Below, piece after piece: positions 36,092-51,307 of a DNA stretch of 64,000 nucleotides (position 1 is its first letter; the number at the start of each line of letters is the position of its first letter). A program made the position numbers and the translations under genes. The notes under the pieces were generated by a model that saw only the letters and a program-made list of their open reading frames with translations, made no database searches and was not told the origin of the DNA. The stretch comes from Cavenderia fasciculata. Its lineage: Eukaryota; Evosea; Eumycetozoa; Acytosteliales; Cavenderiaceae. The stretch lies in assembly GCF_000203815.1 (NCBI RefSeq), contig NW_004457737.1, positions 1,054,001 through 1,118,000 of the forward strand, in the 5' to 3' direction.

Positions 36092-39000
36092 TTACCAGTT
36101 ATTATCCAATTCATAACCAAGTTGAACTAAAATACTTCCTGCCTCTTCTTTGAACCATTGTTTTTGGTTCTTTGTAAAGTAATTTTGCCAGTCTCCAATC
36201 TCACCCTTTCTAAAGAACTTGTTCTTGCTATCGCCTTCCTCTTGGAATCCACCTGGACTGGTCTTGTCGTCGGTGGAGAGGGGCTCGGCTTCGTCGGGGT
36301 CGAGGTTAAGGAACCGGTACATTTCAGCACGTGTTTCTTCTGGGAAACGATGTAGCTCTTCGTAACGGACGATATGCACCTTGGTGGGTGGATTCTTCAT
36401 CTCACCAAGACTCTCGACTAATTGGAAATCCTCTCGAGCACGTGTTGCCCATGACTTGGCAACGTGTCTAAAGCAGACTTCCTTGTCGAGTAGTTGGCCG
36501 GGGTGCTTTTTAAAGTAGAGTGGGTCGGATTTGTAGCCATTGACATAGACGGGGTCGACCAGGTACTTGGACTGACCACCACACCAATTTTCAAAGCCAC
36601 CTAGTCTCACGTAATGCCAAAATAGTGATACGAGGACATCACGACCATCACGCATGATGACAATGTAACGAGCGCCTGAAATGAGTGGTGATAGTGGTGA
36701 AGGGGTCTTTTCACCAACCCAGCTGATCAGTGGCGCCGTGGCGGGTGACACGCCCGACAATACTAGGTTTCTGACAAACGAACGATACCACTTTCTCGTC
36801 AAAGATATGTATGGCTCACGAGCAGCAGCCCAGTGAGAATCGGTGAATTTGTCAAGAGCATCTTCGAGTAGATGGAAATGGAATTCTTGTTGTGCCAACA
36901 ATATTCGTGGATGCAAGTTGAGTACCTTTTTGAGCCATGATGTTCCACTCTTTTCATGACCTCTGACAAAGAGCAAACCAATATGGTCTCTGCTTTCCAT
37001 CATGGGGTTGGGTGTTGTACTCTCCATATCCTCCAATGAAATAATGTCGCTTGATATCTCTTTTATACCTCCTTTACCCTTGTCACATTGTTGTTGCAAT
37101 TGTTTGGATCGTTGTTGAACATTTATAATTTCATTTAAATATACATTTTTGGAAATTAAGAAATGTCTTGTTGCCAAAGGTGCCAATCCCATTGTAGGTG
37201 GTAATATTGCTAAAAGAAAATTAAACAAAAAATATATTAATATAAACTAAACTATTTTAAATTATCTATCTTTTTTTTTTTTTTATATTTATATTTACCT
37301 TCAAAATATTTCATAACTCTTAATTCTTGATTATAAGTACTTGATCCATCAACTTCAAATTTGTTTGTAAAGAATAGGTTGTTTGGGATGGTTTCTAAAT
37401 TGTATCCTTTGTTTGTAGTTTCTGCGTACAGTTCCCATGCACCTCCATAGTCTAGTTCATCCTCGACATCTTTGTTTTCGTAACGACGTCCGACAGCGTC
37501 GAGGACCGAACGCTTCATAAATACATTGTTGGCACCGTAGCAATTGTACAATATACCATTCATTCCCAAACATCCCATATATACACCAGTGATACTTGAA
37601 ACCTTGCTAATGTTGTCGTATTGAAGCGACGATGAAATTAAATCGGCATTGGTAAACTCTTCCACTTGAATGAGTGTGCGCAGAGTACTGAGACTGGGCC
37701 AATCATACTTGTCAATGAATAGAACAAAGTCGCCGGTAACAGTTTCGTGGATACTCTTGCTGTTCCACGGTTGGAACCATTGGTCGACGAGAAACTCGGA
37801 TACGGTGGCCACCTTGGGTTGTTGGAGTGACGCCATTTGGAGGGTACTCGTAAACTCGGCCAAATATTGTTGTTGTTGAGCGCGTGGTTTCTTTGCCTGC
37901 GTTGAAAATGTTGATATGGCAATGACCAACTCTATACGAAGATGCTCCAGTGACTCGTCGGCGTACATTTGGTCGTCGAGTGATTGCAATGCTTTTATAA
38001 ATTCGACTTGATTGGTTTCATCGTACACTAGTACAATCGATATCTTTTTCAGAGTTATTTTTCCGTTTTTGGTGTCGTCTTGCTGCGACTGTGCACCATT
38101 GATATGTACGACTGAATGCCAATTACTCCATATTCTTTGACGTGTCCATTCGTCGATTGCCATTCTCGCCGGTTTGACACCTTGATCAAGACAGGCAGAC
38201 AGCTTCTTGACGAGTGATGCTGGCTTGGGGATGAATAGTGAGCGGTCGCGGTCTTCGGGATGGATGAGCTCGGGGATACCGCCAACCTGCGACGCGATGA
38301 ATGCCAGGCGATGGGTGAGACACTCGAGTACCGTGTTGGGCGAGTTGTCGATGGGCGATGGGATGACAACCAGCTTTTTCTCACGATCAAAGGTGAGGTA
38401 TTGGATGGCCTCGGTGTGAGACTTGCCAATGAGTATGTGACACTTGATTTCAAGTCGGTTACACTTGTTGGCGATATAGTGGTCTGCCATCATGTTGATC
38501 TCGGTCAACTTGGTGTTGGCGCCGAGGAATGTGATGACGACCGACTCTTGTCGCAAACGGTCGACTAGACGCTCAACAGCCTTGATAAACACATCCAGCC
38601 CTTTTCTCGACTCGAGTCGTCCGAAAAAGATAATCTCGTCAAATGAACGTGTCATCTCGCGGTCAATATTGTTAGAGTCGACTTGTGCGGGTGGTAGCAG
38701 GTTCTGGTGCACGTAGCTGTTGCGTGGGAGAATCCACCCGTTGCGACGCATCCAGTTGAGCATGTAGTTGGACGGCGACACGAGCCAGTCTGACATTTCG
38801 ACGGCGCGACGCTCCAAATAGTCGACTTCAAAGTGCTTGCCGTCGTCGAGGTTGGCCGAGTTGGCCGTACGCTCCCACAAGTGCGGTCCGTGTCCTCCAA
38901 TCACAAAAATGGTCTTTTCAAACGTCCACCCTTGGTGTCGCGCCAGCGTGCTAAAGTATCCAATCCCTCCATTGTCGTGAAAGTGTATTATATCGAAATG

Positions 39001-39726
39001 GTTGTTGTTCTTGACCTCTTCGTCGCGCAGCCATTCGTATGTCTTGTACGACCGCAGACAGGGGCCCGTGCACCCAGCCACACCCTCCAATAGAGAGAAC
39101 CCGCTGCCCTCTGTCGCAGCAGCCACCATGACAGGGTCGATCTCCTCGCCTGCCACAGTCACTGCGCTGCCCGACGTCTTTTTCTTCTTTTCTTGCAAGT
39201 CCAATATAACCAATGTAATGTTACGTTTGGCGTACAAGTCGACCCAATGCTCGGCCGTCAACTTCTTGACTTGGTTGACCAACAACACCGTGACGTGGTG
39301 TCCGTCGCTCTGCAGACGCTGTGCCAGTGCCGTGTATGCCGTGCCAATGCCGCCGCCCAGCACAGGTCCCTCAATCTCGGTGGTCACCAGACACACCTTG
39401 CGTTTCTTTAGTCCAGATGCCGTCGTCCACGCTTCCTTGTTGAACTGATGCGGCGTCGGTATGACGTTGGGATCGGTCTCGTCAGGATCGTAGTTGTGCA
39501 AAAAGGGGTACACTACATCCTTGTCGTCTATGTTGTTTATCGTCCTCCCATTGATTGCCAAGCTAGGATGCAACGTCTTGTAGTTGTTATTATTGTCTAA
39601 CGATGGTAGATAGGTTGAATTGTTTGTCGAGTGGTACCATAGATATGCACTGTTAAACAGTAATACCATAATACATAATATAAACAAATTATAAAATGAT
39701 TTACTATAGTTCATCCATCTCGCCAT
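36092..39726 (-). CDS. Type II membrane GT4-GT2-sulfotransferase fusion
   Basis: Two exons (39726-37299 and 37209-36092) encode 1181 residues. The intron 37298-37210 has GTAAAT..CTTTTAG ends and is phase 1. Without splicing the first frame runs only about 47 bases into the intron, and the second has no own promoter space. Residues 12-32 are a signal anchor. Residues 110-530 are a GT4/GT-B glycosyltransferase (VCLVTTEIEGPVLGGGIGTA; HFHDNGGIG; FFGRLESRKGLDVFIKA). Residues about 555-805 look like a GT2/GT-A domain (KISIVLVYDE; GDFVLFIDKYDWPS; GANNVFMKRSVLDAVG). Residues 880-1181 are a PAPS sulfotransferase with the 5' phosphosulfate loop GHEKSGTSWLKK and 3' phosphate motif IMRDGRDVLVS. The layout suggests a Golgi or ER-lumenal enzyme that builds and sulfates one glycan. 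Substrates are unknown. Confidence 0.82.
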
Positions 39727-44791: not shown

Positions 44792-45028
44792 ATCAATCAT
44801 CCTACACTCTTTAACTACTTTTGAAAAATAAATAAATACATAATCCCAATTTAAACATATAAATATAGAGTATATAACTTATAATATTTATAAATATAAT
44901 ATATTTGTTTTTAAAATAAATTAATATACTTTGAGTGAATGAAATTGGTGTCTTATTTTTTAATTTAAATTAGTCATAAGTAGTTACTATCATGACTCTA
45001 GTTTATAGATACAACAAAATAGCTATTA

Positions 45029-46945
45029 ATGGATAGAGATAGATGTTATTTTATATATGGTAGTAGTTATCTACCTAACATTATCATCTATCAAATAGTT
45101 GAAGAGTTGGTGAATGACATTGATTTGATATGTCTGTTGTTCACTTGTAAACAGTTTTATTATAACTTTAGACAACAATACAAGTGTCGATTCAAAGGTG
45201 TATCATTAATAGATAAATCATCAGACACATATAAAATAAGATACAACACTCTCTATGCTATCCAATCATTCCATCTTGGATCATTCACCGATATATTTCA
45301 TAGATCAATCTCAAATCAACTTGTCAAGAGCTGCAACATACCATTATTTAATTACGATAATAATAATAATAATAATAGTAGAAGTAGAGATGATTCGATT
45401 GAAAAGTCTGTAATATTAGTTGATGATATTGATGATAATCTTTTGGTGGATGATCTACCAGATACTATCAAATGGTTATCCATCGATAGTTCTGGTAGAC
45501 CACTCACATTAGAAGATGGATGGAAGTTACCAAGTGAGTTGGAAAGTCTAGAATATATGTCATACAATAGTGGTATGGTTGGATTAGGTGTACTACCAGA
45601 GACATTGACCGAATTGACTTTGGACGTACCTCCCCATGGTCTCGCAGACGGTGTGATTCCTCAGTCAGTACAAACACTCGTACTCAAGAACAATGATGTA
45701 TTTGGTGCACCGGATATAGTGCGATCGGAGTACCACCTTCCTCATCGTCTCTCACACCTCTACATTTATTTCGCAATCGATACTCTGTCGCTGCAGTTCC
45801 CACCGACTCTCAAGTCTCTCACATGGTGGACACCTCCATTGACACCCGACTATATGTTTCCAACAAGTCTTGTCTATTTGAAACTAGTCATCCATGATAC
45901 CCTCAACTATCCGTTAAACCTCTCACTTCTCACATCGCTTCAAACACTCAAAATCAATGCAAGAATATATTTTGTCAATGAACCAACGCCAAGTGACTAT
46001 CTACGTCTTCCACCAAACCTCACCAGTCTCACCCTCCATGCCAAAGCCACAATCGAGTCATTGACATTCTTTCCAAAGAGTTTGGTCAGTCTTGACACCA
46101 ATTACAATATAGTTAGTGGAGCCATTGACAAGGGAGAGCAACTACCCGACACACTCACCTATTTATGTTTACGGTATTGTCACGGTACCATTCCTGCCGG
46201 GTTCATAGGTCCGACTCTCAAATCTCTCAAACTCACCTTTTCCATTGTACATGCTGTCTTGTTGGAGGGTTCCATTCCAGAGGGTGTACAAACGCTCTCT
46301 GTCAACAACTACCAACACAATGGAATCGTTCAACTCATTCCAAAATCAGTCAATCATTTTAGTTGGTCTGAAAAGACAAGTGTCAAAGAGTATTTAGCAT
46401 TTCCATCAACTATTCGTACACTAGAATATAAGCCAAAGGAGATAGACCCCGCCACTGCTCACTACCAGATTCCATCGTCACTCACTTCATTGACCACCAT
46501 CGCCACACGTTGTTGTCCAACAACAACCTCAAGTGTTGGAGAATATCAGCTGTCAACGTTTTACCAATGTAATGAGGATGAAAACAACAGAAAGTGGATA
46601 CTTCCTAAAACAGTTACATTTTTATCGTTGGAGATACCGCCACAGTCTGTCATATCGCATTTCCGGTTTGATCCAATTATCTATCAAACCAATGTAACTG
46701 AATTGGTATTACAATCAGACTCACGTGATATTATTCATTGTAATATTCAAAGATTTGAAGAGTTAGATATCATCAACAACAATAATAACAGTGATACCTA
46801 TGATGTATTGATAACAGACAAACATTCATTACTTGGTGGTGTAGTCAGACTTGGTAAACAACAACAAAAACTATATTTAAATTGGAAGGGAGGTGTTGGT
46901 GCTAATGGGCCACCTACAATTAGTACCACTATCCCCACTGTTTAA
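45029..46945 (+). CDS. FNIP/LRR-like repeat protein with F-box-like N-terminus (copy 1)
   Basis: A single exon encodes 638 residues. The N-terminal 60 residues (NIIIYQIVEELVNDIDLICL; FTCKQFYYNFRQQYKCRFKG) look like the F-box-like helix bundle that opens many dictyostelid repeat proteins. After an Asn-rich linker come about 20 repeats of 20-25 residues with a core P-x-(S/T)-L-x-x-L-x-L, for example LPETLTELTLDVP, IPQSVQTLVLKN, LPPNLTSLTLHA and IPSSLTSLTTIA, similar to FNIP and leucine-rich repeats. F-box/FNIP proteins are candidate substrate adaptors of ubiquitin ligases; that role is inferred. It is the first of three tandem paralogues. Confidence 0.8.
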   Translation: MDRDRCYFIYGSSYLPNIIIYQIVEELVNDIDLICLLFTCKQFYYNFRQQYKCRFKGVSLIDKSSDTYKIRYNTLYAIQSFHLGSFTDIFHRSISNQLVKSCNIPLFNYDNNNNNNSRSRDDSIEKSVILVDDIDDNLLVDDLPDTIKWLSIDSSGRPLTLEDGWKLPSELESLEYMSYNSGMVGLGVLPETLTELTLDVPPHGLADGVIPQSVQTLVLKNNDVFGAPDIVRSEYHLPHRLSHLYIYFAIDTLSLQFPPTLKSLTWWTPPLTPDYMFPTSLVYLKLVIHDTLNYPLNLSLLTSLQTLKINARIYFVNEPTPSDYLRLPPNLTSLTLHAKATIESLTFFPKSLVSLDTNYNIVSGAIDKGEQLPDTLTYLCLRYCHGTIPAGFIGPTLKSLKLTFSIVHAVLLEGSIPEGVQTLSVNNYQHNGIVQLIPKSVNHFSWSEKTSVKEYLAFPSTIRTLEYKPKEIDPATAHYQIPSSLTSLTTIATRCCPTTTSSVGEYQLSTFYQCNEDENNRKWILPKTVTFLSLEIPPQSVISHFRFDPIIYQTNVTELVLQSDSRDIIHCNIQRFEELDIINNNNNSDTYDVLITDKHSLLGGVVRLGKQQQKLYLNWKGGVGANGPPTISTTIPTV

Positions 46946-46951
46946 TTTCAA

Positions 46952-46973
46952 TTCGATTGAAAGTTCAATCGAA
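46952..46973. terminator. 3'-end hairpin after repeat-protein copy 1
   Basis: TTCGATTGAA-AG-TTCAATCGAA is a perfect 10-bp inverted repeat starting 6 bp after the stop codon. A 2-nt loop is too tight for RNA, so the real hairpin would open a pair or two. It may shape the mRNA 3' end or simply be a cruciform-prone palindrome. The other two copies lack it. Confidence 0.35.
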
Positions 46974-47163
46974 ATATGTATATATGTGTAGACTGCTGTT
47001 TACAAAAAAAAAAAAGATCTGACCATCAAAAAATCCGCGAGCGAATATGTGCATGTTCACCGAATCAAAACAAGGCAAAGATCAACTTGATACATGTACG
47101 TTGGTTAAAATAAAAAAAATTAATTTATTTATTAATTTTATTTTGTCTATTATTAGTTATAAT

Positions 47164-49215
47164 ATGGATATAGATAGAGATATAATGGAAGATACAAATA
47201 GAGATATATGTTATTTTATATATGGTGGTAGTTATCTACCTAATAGAATCATCTATCAAATAGTTGAAGAGTTGGTGAATGATATCGATTTGATATGTCT
47301 GTTGTTCACTTGTAAACAGTTTTATTATAACTTTAGACAACAATACAAGTGTCGATTCAAAGGTGTATCATTAATAGATCAGTCAACACACGCACTCAAC
47401 AAAATACGTGACAACACTATACACGCAACCAAATCATTCCACCTTCGATCATTCACCGATATATTTCACAGATCAATATCTAATCAACTTGTCAAAAGCA
47501 ACATACCATTATTTAATTATAATAATAATAATAGTCATAGTGATAATAGTGAGGATTCAATTGAAGAGGCTGTAATTTTGGTTGACCAAATTTACCATAA
47601 ACAACAAAAAAATAATAATAGTGATGATTCGATTGAAACCCCGATCATTATGGGAGGAGCTGGCGATGACTATAATGAACAACCTTTGATGCAAGATCTA
47701 CCAGATACCATCAAATGGCTAGCCGTCAATAGTTCTAGTAGACCTCTCACATTGGCCACTGGATGGAAGTTTCCAAGTCAGCTGGAGAAACTAGAATATA
47801 CTTCAACTATCAATAGAAAGATTGAAATGGGTGTACTACCAGAGACATTGACTGAATTGTCTTTGAGAACACCTTCAGAGACTAGTCTTGAAGAAGGTGT
47901 GATTCCAAAGTCAGTCACATCACTCACACTCAAGAAAATTGAAAAATCTTTGGAAGTTGTTGGTGATGATGTGCCTGTCATCTACTACCACTTTCCTAGT
48001 CATCTCTTGCATCTCCACATTCATTTCAAAATCGAATCTCCAATGCTGATGTTTCCACCGACTCTGCTATCTCTCTCATTGCATATGCCTCCAGCGACCA
48101 CCGACTTTAGATTCCCATCCAATCTTGTCAGTTTAACACTTGGGGTTGGTCGAGATGGTGTCAGCCGTTCGTTAAACCTCTCTCTTCTCACTGCTCTTCA
48201 AACACTCGTGATAAGGTCATCTGTCCCTATTCCAAGTGACTATCTTCGTCTCCCACCAAACCTAACCAGTCTCGTTCTCTATGCCAGTACGACGATCGAC
48301 TCATTGACATTCTTTCCGACGAGTCTGGTCAGTCTCGAAACATTTTATATTACTATAAAAGGTGCCGTCGAAAAAGGAGAACAGCTACACGACACACTCA
48401 CCCATTTAAGTTTACAATTCAAAGAGGCCATCCCCGTTGGATTCATTGGCCCGTCTATTAAAACTCTCAAACTCGGTTTTATCACAAAAGAACTGCTCGA
48501 CGTTGCTCTGCTGGATGGTACTATTCCAGAGGGTGTACAAACACTCTCTATCACCAGCTACCGAAATTTTGGTATCCCTCCAACTATTCTACAATCGATC
48601 AATCGTTTTACATGGAATCGTTTGAATACCAAAACAGAAAATCTAGCATTTCCATCGACCGTTGGTGCACTAGAATATTTTTCTGGGCTCCCGGCCAACT
48701 ACCAGATTCCATCATCACTCACCTCACTATCGACGGTTGCCACACGTCAAGCCAACCTATTACAAAAAGAATATGGTCTGTCAACTCTCTACATCTATCA
48801 AGATGAAAACAACAGAAAGTGGTTGCTTCCTGAAACTGTTACATTTCTATCTTTGGATATCCCCTCACATTTTGATGGAATGGATGAAACATATTATTTG
48901 TATGTTAGGTTGGATCCAATTATCTATCAAACAAATGTAACTGAATTGGTATTACGAACAATTAGTAGAGATATTATTCATTGTAATATTCAAAGATTGG
49001 AAGATTATAGCAACAACAACAACAACAACAACAATAATAGTGATACCTATGATGTATTGATAACAGACCAACACTCATTACTTGGGGGTATCGTCAGACT
49101 TTCTAAACAACAACCACAAACACAACAACTATATTTAAATATAAATTGGAAGAAAATTGGTGACCCATTTAAAATCAGTGTGACTACTATCCCAGGAACA
49201 ACAAACATACAATGA
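47164..49215 (+). CDS. FNIP/LRR-like repeat protein with F-box-like N-terminus (copy 2)
   Basis: A single exon encodes 683 residues from the ATG at 47164. The frame is open back to 47047, but the upstream part is unlike the paralogues, and 47164 gives MDIDRDIMEDTNRDICYF, matching copy 3. The F-box-like N-terminus is almost identical to copies 1 and 3 in DNA as well as protein. A longer Asn/Asp-rich linker carries two related acidic motifs (DSIEEAVILVD; DSIETPIIMGG). The repeats include LPETLTELSLRTP, IPKSVTSLTLKK, FPSNLVSLTLGV and LPETVTFLSLDIP. The C-terminal block FDP/LDPIIYQTNVTELVL is shared by all three genes. Role is unknown; ubiquitin-ligase adaptor is a guess from the domain type. Confidence 0.8.
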   Translation: MDIDRDIMEDTNRDICYFIYGGSYLPNRIIYQIVEELVNDIDLICLLFTCKQFYYNFRQQYKCRFKGVSLIDQSTHALNKIRDNTIHATKSFHLRSFTDIFHRSISNQLVKSNIPLFNYNNNNSHSDNSEDSIEEAVILVDQIYHKQQKNNNSDDSIETPIIMGGAGDDYNEQPLMQDLPDTIKWLAVNSSSRPLTLATGWKFPSQLEKLEYTSTINRKIEMGVLPETLTELSLRTPSETSLEEGVIPKSVTSLTLKKIEKSLEVVGDDVPVIYYHFPSHLLHLHIHFKIESPMLMFPPTLLSLSLHMPPATTDFRFPSNLVSLTLGVGRDGVSRSLNLSLLTALQTLVIRSSVPIPSDYLRLPPNLTSLVLYASTTIDSLTFFPTSLVSLETFYITIKGAVEKGEQLHDTLTHLSLQFKEAIPVGFIGPSIKTLKLGFITKELLDVALLDGTIPEGVQTLSITSYRNFGIPPTILQSINRFTWNRLNTKTENLAFPSTVGALEYFSGLPANYQIPSSLTSLSTVATRQANLLQKEYGLSTLYIYQDENNRKWLLPETVTFLSLDIPSHFDGMDETYYLYVRLDPIIYQTNVTELVLRTISRDIIHCNIQRLEDYSNNNNNNNNNSDTYDVLITDQHSLLGGIVRLSKQQPQTQQLYLNINWKKIGDPFKISVTTIPGTTNIQ

Positions 49216-49360
49216 ACCATTTATTAATAAATGATGAAGGATTAATATTATTAATGGTATCAATAAAAAATAAAATAAAATAAAAAATTGGATGGCTCTG
49301 AAGTCGTTGGTCTTTCGTCTCTTATTATAAAAACAATTTATTTTTAATTTTCTATTTGTA

Positions 49361-51307
49361 ATGGAAGATATAGATACAAATAGAGATATAGATAAATGTT
49401 ATTTTATATATGGTAGTAGTTATCTACCTAATATAATCATCTATCAAATAGTTGAAGAGTTGGTGAATGACATTGATTTGATATGTCTGTTGTTCACTTG
49501 TAAACAGTTTTATTATAACTTTAGACAACAATACAAGTGTAGATTTAAAGGTGTATCATTAATTGATCAAACAAAATGCTCATACAAGATAAGATACGGC
49601 ACTCTGCACGCAACCAAATCATTCAACCTTCGATCATTCACCGATATATTTCATAGATCAATATCTAATCAACTTGTCAAAAGCATCACCAGCCCTCTCA
49701 TCAATTATAATAATAATAGTAATAATAATAGAGATGATTTGATTGAAAAAGCATTGATCTACAATATAATAGAATCAAATGAAAACAACAACGATGACAA
49801 CCATATTGATGCAAGAAAGATGATGGATGATCTACCAGATACTATCAAATGGCTCATCGTTGATAGTCCTGCTCGTCTGAGATTCAGACGATTAACACCC
49901 CTGTCGTTGGATGGATACAAGTTTCCGAGTCAGCTGGAGATACTACATTTAATATTGAACAGCAGCATTGCAAATGTATTGCTACCAGAGACATTGACCG
50001 AATTGACTTTGGACACACCTGACAATGGTCTTGCAGAAGGTTTGGTTCCACAGTCGGTCAGATCACTCACACTCCAGAACATCATTTATCGTGGTTCATC
50101 TATATCCACAGGATACCACTTTCCTCGTCATCTCTTGCATCTAAAGATCAATTACGCAATACAATCTCCACTGCCGTTTCCACCAACTCTGCTATCTCTC
50201 TCGTTGAGGATGGCTACAGTACTCACCGACTTTAGATTTCCATCGAATCTTGTCAGTTTAACACTCTACGCTGAACCTCTCAAACAACCGTTAAACCTCT
50301 GGCTTCTCACTGCACTTGAAACCCTCTACATTTCATTACATGAATCGCTCGGTCCGAGGGGCATTCCAACGCCAAGTGACTATCTGCGTCTCCCACCAAA
50401 CCTAACCAGTCTAACACTCAATGCCAAAACCACGATTGATTCATTGACACTCTTTCCAAATAGTCTTGTCAGTCTTTGTATCGGATACGATGTCATAAGT
50501 GGTGCCATAGACAAGGGAGAGCAACTGCACCCCGCACTCACCCATTTAAGTTTACATGGTTGGAGTGGTACCCTACCGGCTGGGTTCATTGCCTCGACTG
50601 TTAAAACCGTCAAGATCGATTTTAATAGGGAGGGTTCCATGTTGGAGGGTGCCATTCCAGAAGGTGTACAAACACTCAATGTCACCAGCTACCATCACAA
50701 TGGAATCGTTCAGCTCATTCCACAATCAGTCAAACATTTCAGTTGGAGAACTATTGGAAGGCAGAATGCCGTAGAAGAGTATTTTGCATTTCCATCAACC
50801 ATTCGCACACTTGGATGTATGAAAAGAAGTAATCCCGCCAACTTCCAGATACCCTCGTCACTCACCTCCCTATCCATCTACGCGCCTACGTCCCCAATCT
50901 ATTCCGGTGAGAGAGAATATGACCTGTCAGCACTGTACAATGTTGACGAAGGTGAAAACAATAGAAAGAGGTTGCTTCCTGAGACAGTTAGCATTTTAAC
51001 ATTAGAGATACCTTCATATCGTGGTTCACACCTCAGATTGGATCCAATTATCTATCAAACCAATGTAACTGAATTGGTAATACAATCAGACTTTAGCGAA
51101 CCCATTTGTTGGAATATTCAAAGATTTGAAGAATTGAACTATAGTATCAACAATAATAACAACGATATCTATGATGTATTGATAACAGAAAAAAGTTCAT
51201 TATTTGGAGGTATCGTCAGACTTGGTAAACAACAAACAAAACTGTATTTAAATTGGAAGAGCTCCAAGGTTTCACCTATAATCAGCACGAATCCCGTTTA
51301 TTTTTGA
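49361..51307 (+). CDS. FNIP/LRR-like repeat protein with F-box-like N-terminus (copy 3)
   Basis: A single exon encodes 648 residues, starting MEDIDTNRDIDKCYFIYGSS. Organisation is as in the two upstream paralogues: F-box-like first 65 residues, Asn/Asp-rich linker, about 20 P-x-(S/T)-L-x-x-L-x-L repeats (LPETLTELTLDTP, FPPTLLSLSLRMA, LPPNLTSLTLNAK, IPSSLTSLSIYA), and the shared end LDPIIYQTNVTELVIQS. Spacing of 145-218 bp between the genes and common orientation fit serial tandem duplication. Protein divergence rises steadily after the N-terminal block. Confidence 0.8.
   Translation: MEDIDTNRDIDKCYFIYGSSYLPNIIIYQIVEELVNDIDLICLLFTCKQFYYNFRQQYKCRFKGVSLIDQTKCSYKIRYGTLHATKSFNLRSFTDIFHRSISNQLVKSITSPLINYNNNSNNNRDDLIEKALIYNIIESNENNNDDNHIDARKMMDDLPDTIKWLIVDSPARLRFRRLTPLSLDGYKFPSQLEILHLILNSSIANVLLPETLTELTLDTPDNGLAEGLVPQSVRSLTLQNIIYRGSSISTGYHFPRHLLHLKINYAIQSPLPFPPTLLSLSLRMATVLTDFRFPSNLVSLTLYAEPLKQPLNLWLLTALETLYISLHESLGPRGIPTPSDYLRLPPNLTSLTLNAKTTIDSLTLFPNSLVSLCIGYDVISGAIDKGEQLHPALTHLSLHGWSGTLPAGFIASTVKTVKIDFNREGSMLEGAIPEGVQTLNVTSYHHNGIVQLIPQSVKHFSWRTIGRQNAVEEYFAFPSTIRTLGCMKRSNPANFQIPSSLTSLSIYAPTSPIYSGEREYDLSALYNVDEGENNRKRLLPETVSILTLEIPSYRGSHLRLDPIIYQTNVTELVIQSDFSEPICWNIQRFEELNYSINNNNNDIYDVLITEKSSLFGGIVRLGKQQTKLYLNWKSSKVSPIISTNPVYF

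Follow-up and report, generated by a model that had tools for sequence, protein, structure and literature searches.

The gene and its paralogue

The window, by which we mean the whole stretch of 64,000 nucleotides of Cavenderia fasciculata DNA analysed here, contains on its minus strand a predicted gene that joins a GT4-type glycosyltransferase module, an apparent GT2 relic and a PAPS sulfotransferase module behind a predicted signal anchor. This fusion gene has its start ATG at 39726 and its stop codon at 36092–36094, and the spliced product is 1,181 aa, in a single frame through the predicted join; the coordinates, strand, 89-bp phase-1 intron (37298–37210), single frame and product length given in an original prediction are all borne out by the sequence and its translation. 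The features are as follows, with motif roles as we presume them from general knowledge.

37299..39726, minus strand: exon 1, with signal anchor, GT4 and relic GT2 (residues 1–809 plus base 1 of codon 810; by translation and splicing, and Pfam)
39637..39696, minus strand: putative signal anchor, about residues 11–30 (from hydropathy; topology predicted)
38107..39402, minus strand: GT4 module, residues 109–540
38599..38628, minus strand: FFGRLESRKG, presumed GT4 donor-side motif, residues 367–376, invariant between fusion gene and paralogue
38323..38352, minus strand: presumed D-x7-E motif of GT4 in IDNSPNTVLE, residues 459–468
37300..38106, minus strand: probable relic GT2 module, residues 541–809 (14 of 41 conserved residues, profile score 42.5 bits, Pfam GT2 match absent)
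37702..37713, minus strand: DKYD at the DDD site, residues 672–675 (DDD in 36 of 36 bacterial didomains)
37210..37298, minus strand: 89-bp GT-AG intron, phase 1, 91% A+T, predicted from sequence
36092..37209, minus strand: exon 2, with linker, sulfotransferase module and stop codon (by translation and splicing, and Pfam)
36146..36970, minus strand: PAPS sulfotransferase module, residues 890–1164 (PF00685, 1.3e-18)
36935..36955, minus strand: EKSGTSW, presumed 5'-phosphosulfate-binding motif, residues 895–901, pairing with KSGT of 5x2b
36188..36211, minus strand: RKGEIGDW, presumed SULT-type 3'-phosphate-binding motif, residues 1143–1150, aligning with RKGVVGDW of 5x2b

One close paralogue was found in the same genome (31 Mb, 21 contigs), at C5 (L017:1280–7812; G000:C5:2803279–2809811). 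The two genes have the GT4-GT2 part in common, with 36% identity across 384 GT4 columns. In its five-exon model the paralogue differs by a signal peptide-like start, an intact GT2 (PF00535, 8.4e-29) and, behind that GT2, a series of IPT/TIG, PKD-like, REJ and GPS domains followed by a hydrophobic segment; no sulfotransferase match was found in the model. The paralogue in its own right joins glycosyltransferases to a polycystin/adhesion-type ectodomain.

Left unspliced, the frame of the fusion gene ends at 824 aa in a lysine-rich tail, with the sulfotransferase missing. Two neighbouring genes might then lie here, one for an 824-aa GT4-GT2 protein that ends inside the “intron”, the other for a sulfotransferase that starts at or close to the ATG of residue 816, and this arrangement would agree with the stop of the unspliced frame 15 codons past residue 809 and with a sulfotransferase frame that stays open for 37 bases into the intron. 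However, the intron has the consensus form GT...TTTTAG, is in phase and resembles the introns of the paralogue (91% A+T versus 84–87% for the four introns of that model), and the gap from the 824-aa frame stop to the residue-816 ATG would be just ∼59 bp. A profile alignment also runs on through the join, though weakly: joining the exons gains only ∼2 bits (50.3 versus 48.0 for the whole sequence, 47.9 versus 45.3 for the best domain), so that homology leaves the join undecided. We regard two separate genes as improbable and proceed with the single spliced chain. GC3 is 0.67 in the GT4 module and 0.44 in both the GT2 and sulfotransferase modules, a difference from which we draw no conclusion because two other ORFs in the window reach 0.56 and 0.61.

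The signal anchor of the original prediction coincides with the strongest hydrophobic segment in a hydropathy scan, in which the top 19-residue window begins at residue 11 (mean 1.92) and the next best outside residues 1–45 has a mean of 1.14. This single N-terminal hydrophobic segment is preceded by charges, and R3 and K9 ahead of it suggest a type II topology, with the N terminus inside and the C terminus in the lumen. On our reading, the product would be a type II protein in the membranes of the secretory pathway, with the Golgi as its most likely site.

Elsewhere in the window, at 45023–51304 on the plus strand, three adjoining long ORFs form a local tandem gene family; two have CYFIYGSSYLPNIIIYQIVEELVNDIDLICLLFTCKQF in common (in the printed part), and the third has the CYFIYGSSYLPNIIIYQIVEELVNDIDLICLLFTCKQF start.

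A bacterial family of GT4-GT2 didomains

The GT2 motif NRYLGAARN of the paralogue, written as a degenerate DNA pattern, served as probe and located 66 loci in bacterial genomes (L018–L083) and 0 viral loci. At E ≤ 1e-3 in tblastn, exon 1 matches 59 of these loci and the paralogue 65, many of the matches spanning both modules; the best exon 1 match scores 322 bits and covers residues 110–785, collinear through both modules. Since exon 1 finds its bacterial counterparts on both modules, the GT4-GT2 chassis, judged by sequence homology, is a member of a bacterial family. That family is sparse and scattered: a GT4-only query matched 2 genomes among the 282 of the G002 phylum (E ≤ 1e-25) and 5 among the 398 of the G025 phylum (E ≤ 1e-30), each count including the centre genome. 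The suggestion of one gene that is perhaps partly of bacterial origin fits the matches at 59 of 66 loci, with the gene's own genome as the sole eukaryotic comparison.

The myxococcal locus L020 has GT4 followed by GT2, as in the fusion gene, with 31.6% identity over residues 110–785, and differs in that its GT2 is intact (PF00535, 4e-27). In a GT4 tree, the approximately unbiased test rejects neither a clade of the fusion gene with its paralogue (p = 0.454) nor one of the fusion gene with L020 (p = 0.619), so that the tree fits one capture as well as two. For residue-level comparison we used 36 didomain ORFs from the 34 of 66 loci at which a single match to the paralogue extended over 600 residues or more; their GT2 modules are intact partly by construction, because the loci were chosen by a GT2 motif. 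A search of genome contigs and of viral contigs with the two-sequence alignment A1, which relies on few peptide patterns and says little, confirmed no relative.

State of the three modules

The GT4 assignment of the original prediction is supported by three Pfam profiles (PF13692, 1.6e-12; PF00534, 3.8e-12; PF13439, 2e-9). Among the 32 GT4 columns conserved at ≥85% in the 36 bacterial didomains, 30 are kept in the fusion gene and 26 in the paralogue. An AlphaFold2 model of residues 101–809 (pLDDT 82.6, pTM 0.88) has a clear GT4-type fold; when no alignment was supplied, the structure prediction for exon 1 was of no use (pLDDT 35.2). FFGRLESRKG is presumably the donor-side motif that supplies the basic donor-site residues, and we take the D-x7-E of IDNSPNTVLE to be the counterpart of the GT4 E-x7-E motif. 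The GT4 profile, GT-B fold, acidic-x7-E motif and basic donor-site residues together are those of the retaining, GT-B family GT4 of CAZy.

The middle module, the GT2-like domain of the original prediction, is of a different kind. Its homology to GT2 stood up: a custom profile built from the bacterial GT2 modules matches residues 663–788 with 42.5 bits. The match to established GT2 models and the site residues did not. No match of exon 1 to the Pfam and NCBIfam GT2 models, including PF00535, PF10111 and PF13641, is listed at E ≤ 1 (a listing that is incomplete above ∼0.1, where HMMER filters discard most matches), and in alignment A2, of 37 rows, PF00535 misses the fusion gene alone and matches the other 36. 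In a VIA-align structure list, the GT4 part alone was aligned (model residues 7–445), with the GT2 part outside the matches. The fusion gene keeps 14 of the 50 GT2 residues conserved at ≥85% in the 36 didomains and the paralogue 47; after removal of the nine probe columns the counts are 14 and 38 of 41, as compared to a mean of 38.25 and a minimum of 28 for the bacterial rows. The NRYLGAARN motif is also lost, although its conservation in the other rows is by construction, since it was the probe.

The losses include the sites for nucleotide and metal. Columns D, D and S of DDGS, each present in 36 of 36 bacterial didomains and in the paralogue, are lost in the fusion gene; the string DDGS is absent from its GT2 module, and the alignment near it is unsure (a marginal alternative, at 0.3 bits, sets VYDET against VDDGS). 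At the DDD site, DKYD retains the first D, the remaining two being gone, and scattered other conserved GT2 residues survive beside it. The module, which thus shows neither a general GT2 profile match nor the DDGS nucleotide site or DXD metal site, is descended from GT2 but, as far as its residues reveal, is a relic.

This bears on the earlier idea of a trifunctional machine, in which GT4, GT2 and sulfotransferase would all be active. The alternation of strand and helix in residues 555–805 of the AlphaFold2 model, the profile homology, the retained first D of DDD and a D close to where ED would lie speak for it, and some GT-A enzymes function without a DXD motif. The lost D, D and S of DDGS and the lost DDD, in columns invariant across the bacterial rows and kept by the paralogue, together with the absent Pfam GT2 match, speak against it, and we consider three active enzymes quite improbable. 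With its GT2 site residues lost, the protein likely has two active enzymes instead and probably carries out two steps on a glycan, not three.

Bacterial copies with degenerate GT2 halves are found as well. Because the NRYLGAARN probe had selected intact GT2s, further copies were fetched via exon 1 or its GT4 part, giving 16 ORFs from 15 hand-picked regions. DDGS and DDD are both absent in 7 of the 16 (L117, two copies in L112, L114, L116, L111 and L120), a count that is not a frequency because the ORFs were hand-picked, the probe motif is present in three (L110, L113 and L121), and the GT4 sequence of L110 is that of L045 (branch length 0 in the tree); L118 has DDGS and lacks DDD. In a second GT4 tree, from which three long-branch rows (L022, L083 and L068) were dropped, the degenerate copies are not a single group: degenerate L117 is sister to intact L020 (100/97), the degenerate L114 and L116 pair at 100/100, L111 and one L112 copy group with intact L113, and L120 groups with L118. 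This scatter of degenerate copies suggests repeated decay of the GT2 half in bacterial copies that retained GT4. The “GT2” of a GT4-GT2 protein should accordingly be checked for its active site before it is counted as an enzyme. In L112, the two GT4-GT2 genes with degenerate GT2 lie in tandem. L025:15–4666 has, on one strand, a GT4 match and, ∼2.8 kb away from it, a separate match to GT2; the former probably represents the L114 gene with its degenerate GT2.

The predicted PAPS sulfotransferase domain is confirmed by PF00685 (1.3e-18; 67.8 bits versus a cut-off of 22). RKGEIGDW, against RKGVVGDW, is the best-scoring alignment piece with the solved sulfotransferase 5x2b, and the piece that pairs EKSGTSW with KSGT is not significant alone; we take EKSGTSW to bind the 5'-phosphosulfate and RKGEIGDW the 3'-phosphate. 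The R...S segment reads RDGRDVLVS. The module thus has both a profile match above cut-off and the 5'-PSB and 3'-PB motifs of a PAPS sulfotransferase.

Taken together, these features favour a fusion of two enzymes, a working GT4 and a sulfotransferase with a non-catalytic GT2 between them, in a type II protein of the secretory pathway, a reading that we hold to be fairly likely and for which we infer splicing, topology, activity, reaction coupling, sugar and acceptor. GT4, with retention of configuration, would take a sugar from its nucleotide donor and attach it to an acceptor glycan; to that sugar, or to one beside it, the C-terminal sulfotransferase would then add sulfate from PAPS. The GT2 module, its nucleotide-sugar binding presumably gone, would have no catalytic role and would serve as a spacer or hold the acceptor. 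Were the sulfotransferase alone active, the GT4-GT2 part would be a lectin-like or scaffold remnant; the GT2 half is indeed degenerate already, but GT4 retains 30 of its 32 conserved residues, GRLxxRKG and D-x7-E, which leaves that alternative highly improbable. Beyond the two-enzyme fusion, we offer as a speculation, and a rather doubtful one, that this is a coupled sugar-then-sulfate enzyme of dictyostelids built on a captured bacterial chassis, in which the dead GT2 is kept as a relay for the acceptor between GT4 and sulfotransferase, and devoted to a sulfated glycan other than the Kil1-dependent mannose-6-sulfate.

Sulfotransferase partners and dictyostelid sulfation

In the two-enzyme fusion, the sulfotransferase would have been joined to a GT4-GT2 chassis of bacterial type, and the bacterial relatives of the sulfotransferase itself are weak (best 48 bits, residues 275–371 of exon 2). 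Exon 2 matches none of the 66 bacterial probe loci in tblastn (E ≤ 1e-3), and sulfotransferase relatives were found in 2 of 32 probe genomes at E ≤ 1e-5 and, in the phylum of G013, in 1 of 297 genomes (G013 itself) at E ≤ 1e-10. No relative of exon 2 was confirmed in viral contigs, where the few peptide patterns used say little.

To look for pairing of a sulfotransferase with GT4-GT2 we started from 50 of the 66 loci and searched 49 genomes, 38 of which had a GT4-GT2 match; positions were compared by eye. A PF13469 match lies in the same ORF or within 5 kb in 4 of the 38, a raw count: in the same ORF in G025 (the ORF of L079), and within 5 kb on the same contig and strand in G004 (a partial match), G032 and G046. 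Such neighbours may share polysaccharide clusters for general reasons.

Among nine full bacterial didomain ORFs (Pfam, E ≤ 0.001), none matches PF00685 and one, L079, matches PF13469. This 1,138-aa ORF of the Pseudomonadota MAG YP4.bin20 resembles the fusion gene in that a single chain holds GT4, GT2 and a domain of the sulfotransferase family, and differs in that the sulfotransferase is N-terminal of GT4 and GT2 and of the PF13469 type (25.2 bits for the whole ORF, 27.1 for the N-terminal piece and 29.1 in the genome search, with a cut-off of 27) and in that GT2 is intact. The earlier statement that no common GT4-GT2-sulfotransferase chain is known therefore needs a qualifier: L079 joins all three, in another order. 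Its sulfotransferase looks like a different subtype from the SULT-like one of the fusion gene, which points to a recurring pairing and not to the same fusion event.

At least two PF00685 loci occur in the gene's own genome, the fusion gene and L009, and PF13469 finds the same two; at least two PF03567 loci, L129 (C5) and L130 (C21), were also found. The counts are lower bounds because the search ran exon by exon. L009:1093–2442 (C5) is a stand-alone sulfotransferase of 449 aa with a hydrophobic start.

The gene name gtr1 stands for glycosyltransferase. The fused GT2-GT74 enzyme of Dictyostelium, which we take to be PgtA, is cytoplasmic, acts on Skp1 and has no sulfotransferase. Like the fusion gene, that enzyme has two glycosyltransferase modules in one amoeba protein (PMC11468063, in excerpt). 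Sulfated N-glycans are described from Dictyostelium discoideum, D. giganteum and D. purpureum (PMC11795075, in excerpt). Kil1, a Golgi protein of D. discoideum, is like the fusion gene an amoeba sulfotransferase of the secretory pathway (PMC3534706 and PMC11346726, in excerpt). An excerpt of PMC3534706 calls it the only characterized sulfotransferase as of 2013, states that in kil1 knock-out cells sulfated glycoproteins were absent with an antibody to a mannose-6-sulfate epitope, and names gtr1 of D. discoideum as another putative sulfotransferase. Kil1 is a 56-kDa protein (PMC5484366, in excerpt), a size that L009 fits better than does the 1,181-aa fusion chain; L009 is a possible Kil1 orthologue.

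Since L009 is the better fit to Kil1, by elimination the fusion gene may be the orthologue of D. discoideum gtr1, hence already named, and act on a glycan other than that of Kil1. We give this identification, which is compatible with the two-enzyme fusion, an even chance. In its favour, gtr1 combines a putative sulfotransferase (PMC3534706, in excerpt) with a name that points to a glycosyltransferase, and the fusion gene is, of the two PF00685 loci found, the only one with glycosyltransferase domains; among the literature matches listed, however, there was no paper on gtr1 itself. Neither the fusion protein nor a gtr1 product is described among those matches, which lie largely outside subscription journals; the parts are known, and the module order, or its combination with a signal anchor, was not found described among them. 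With a second sulfotransferase candidate physically linked to a glycosyltransferase, the enzymes for two steps of one glycan, addition of the sugar and of the sulfate, would be identified together, and the fusion gene is a testable candidate for a second sulfation pathway that a single-gene deletion could test.

A further glycosyltransferase combination occurs at L002:694–3453 (C3), where a 919-aa frame carries GT4 and GT61, perhaps with a GT2 end ahead.
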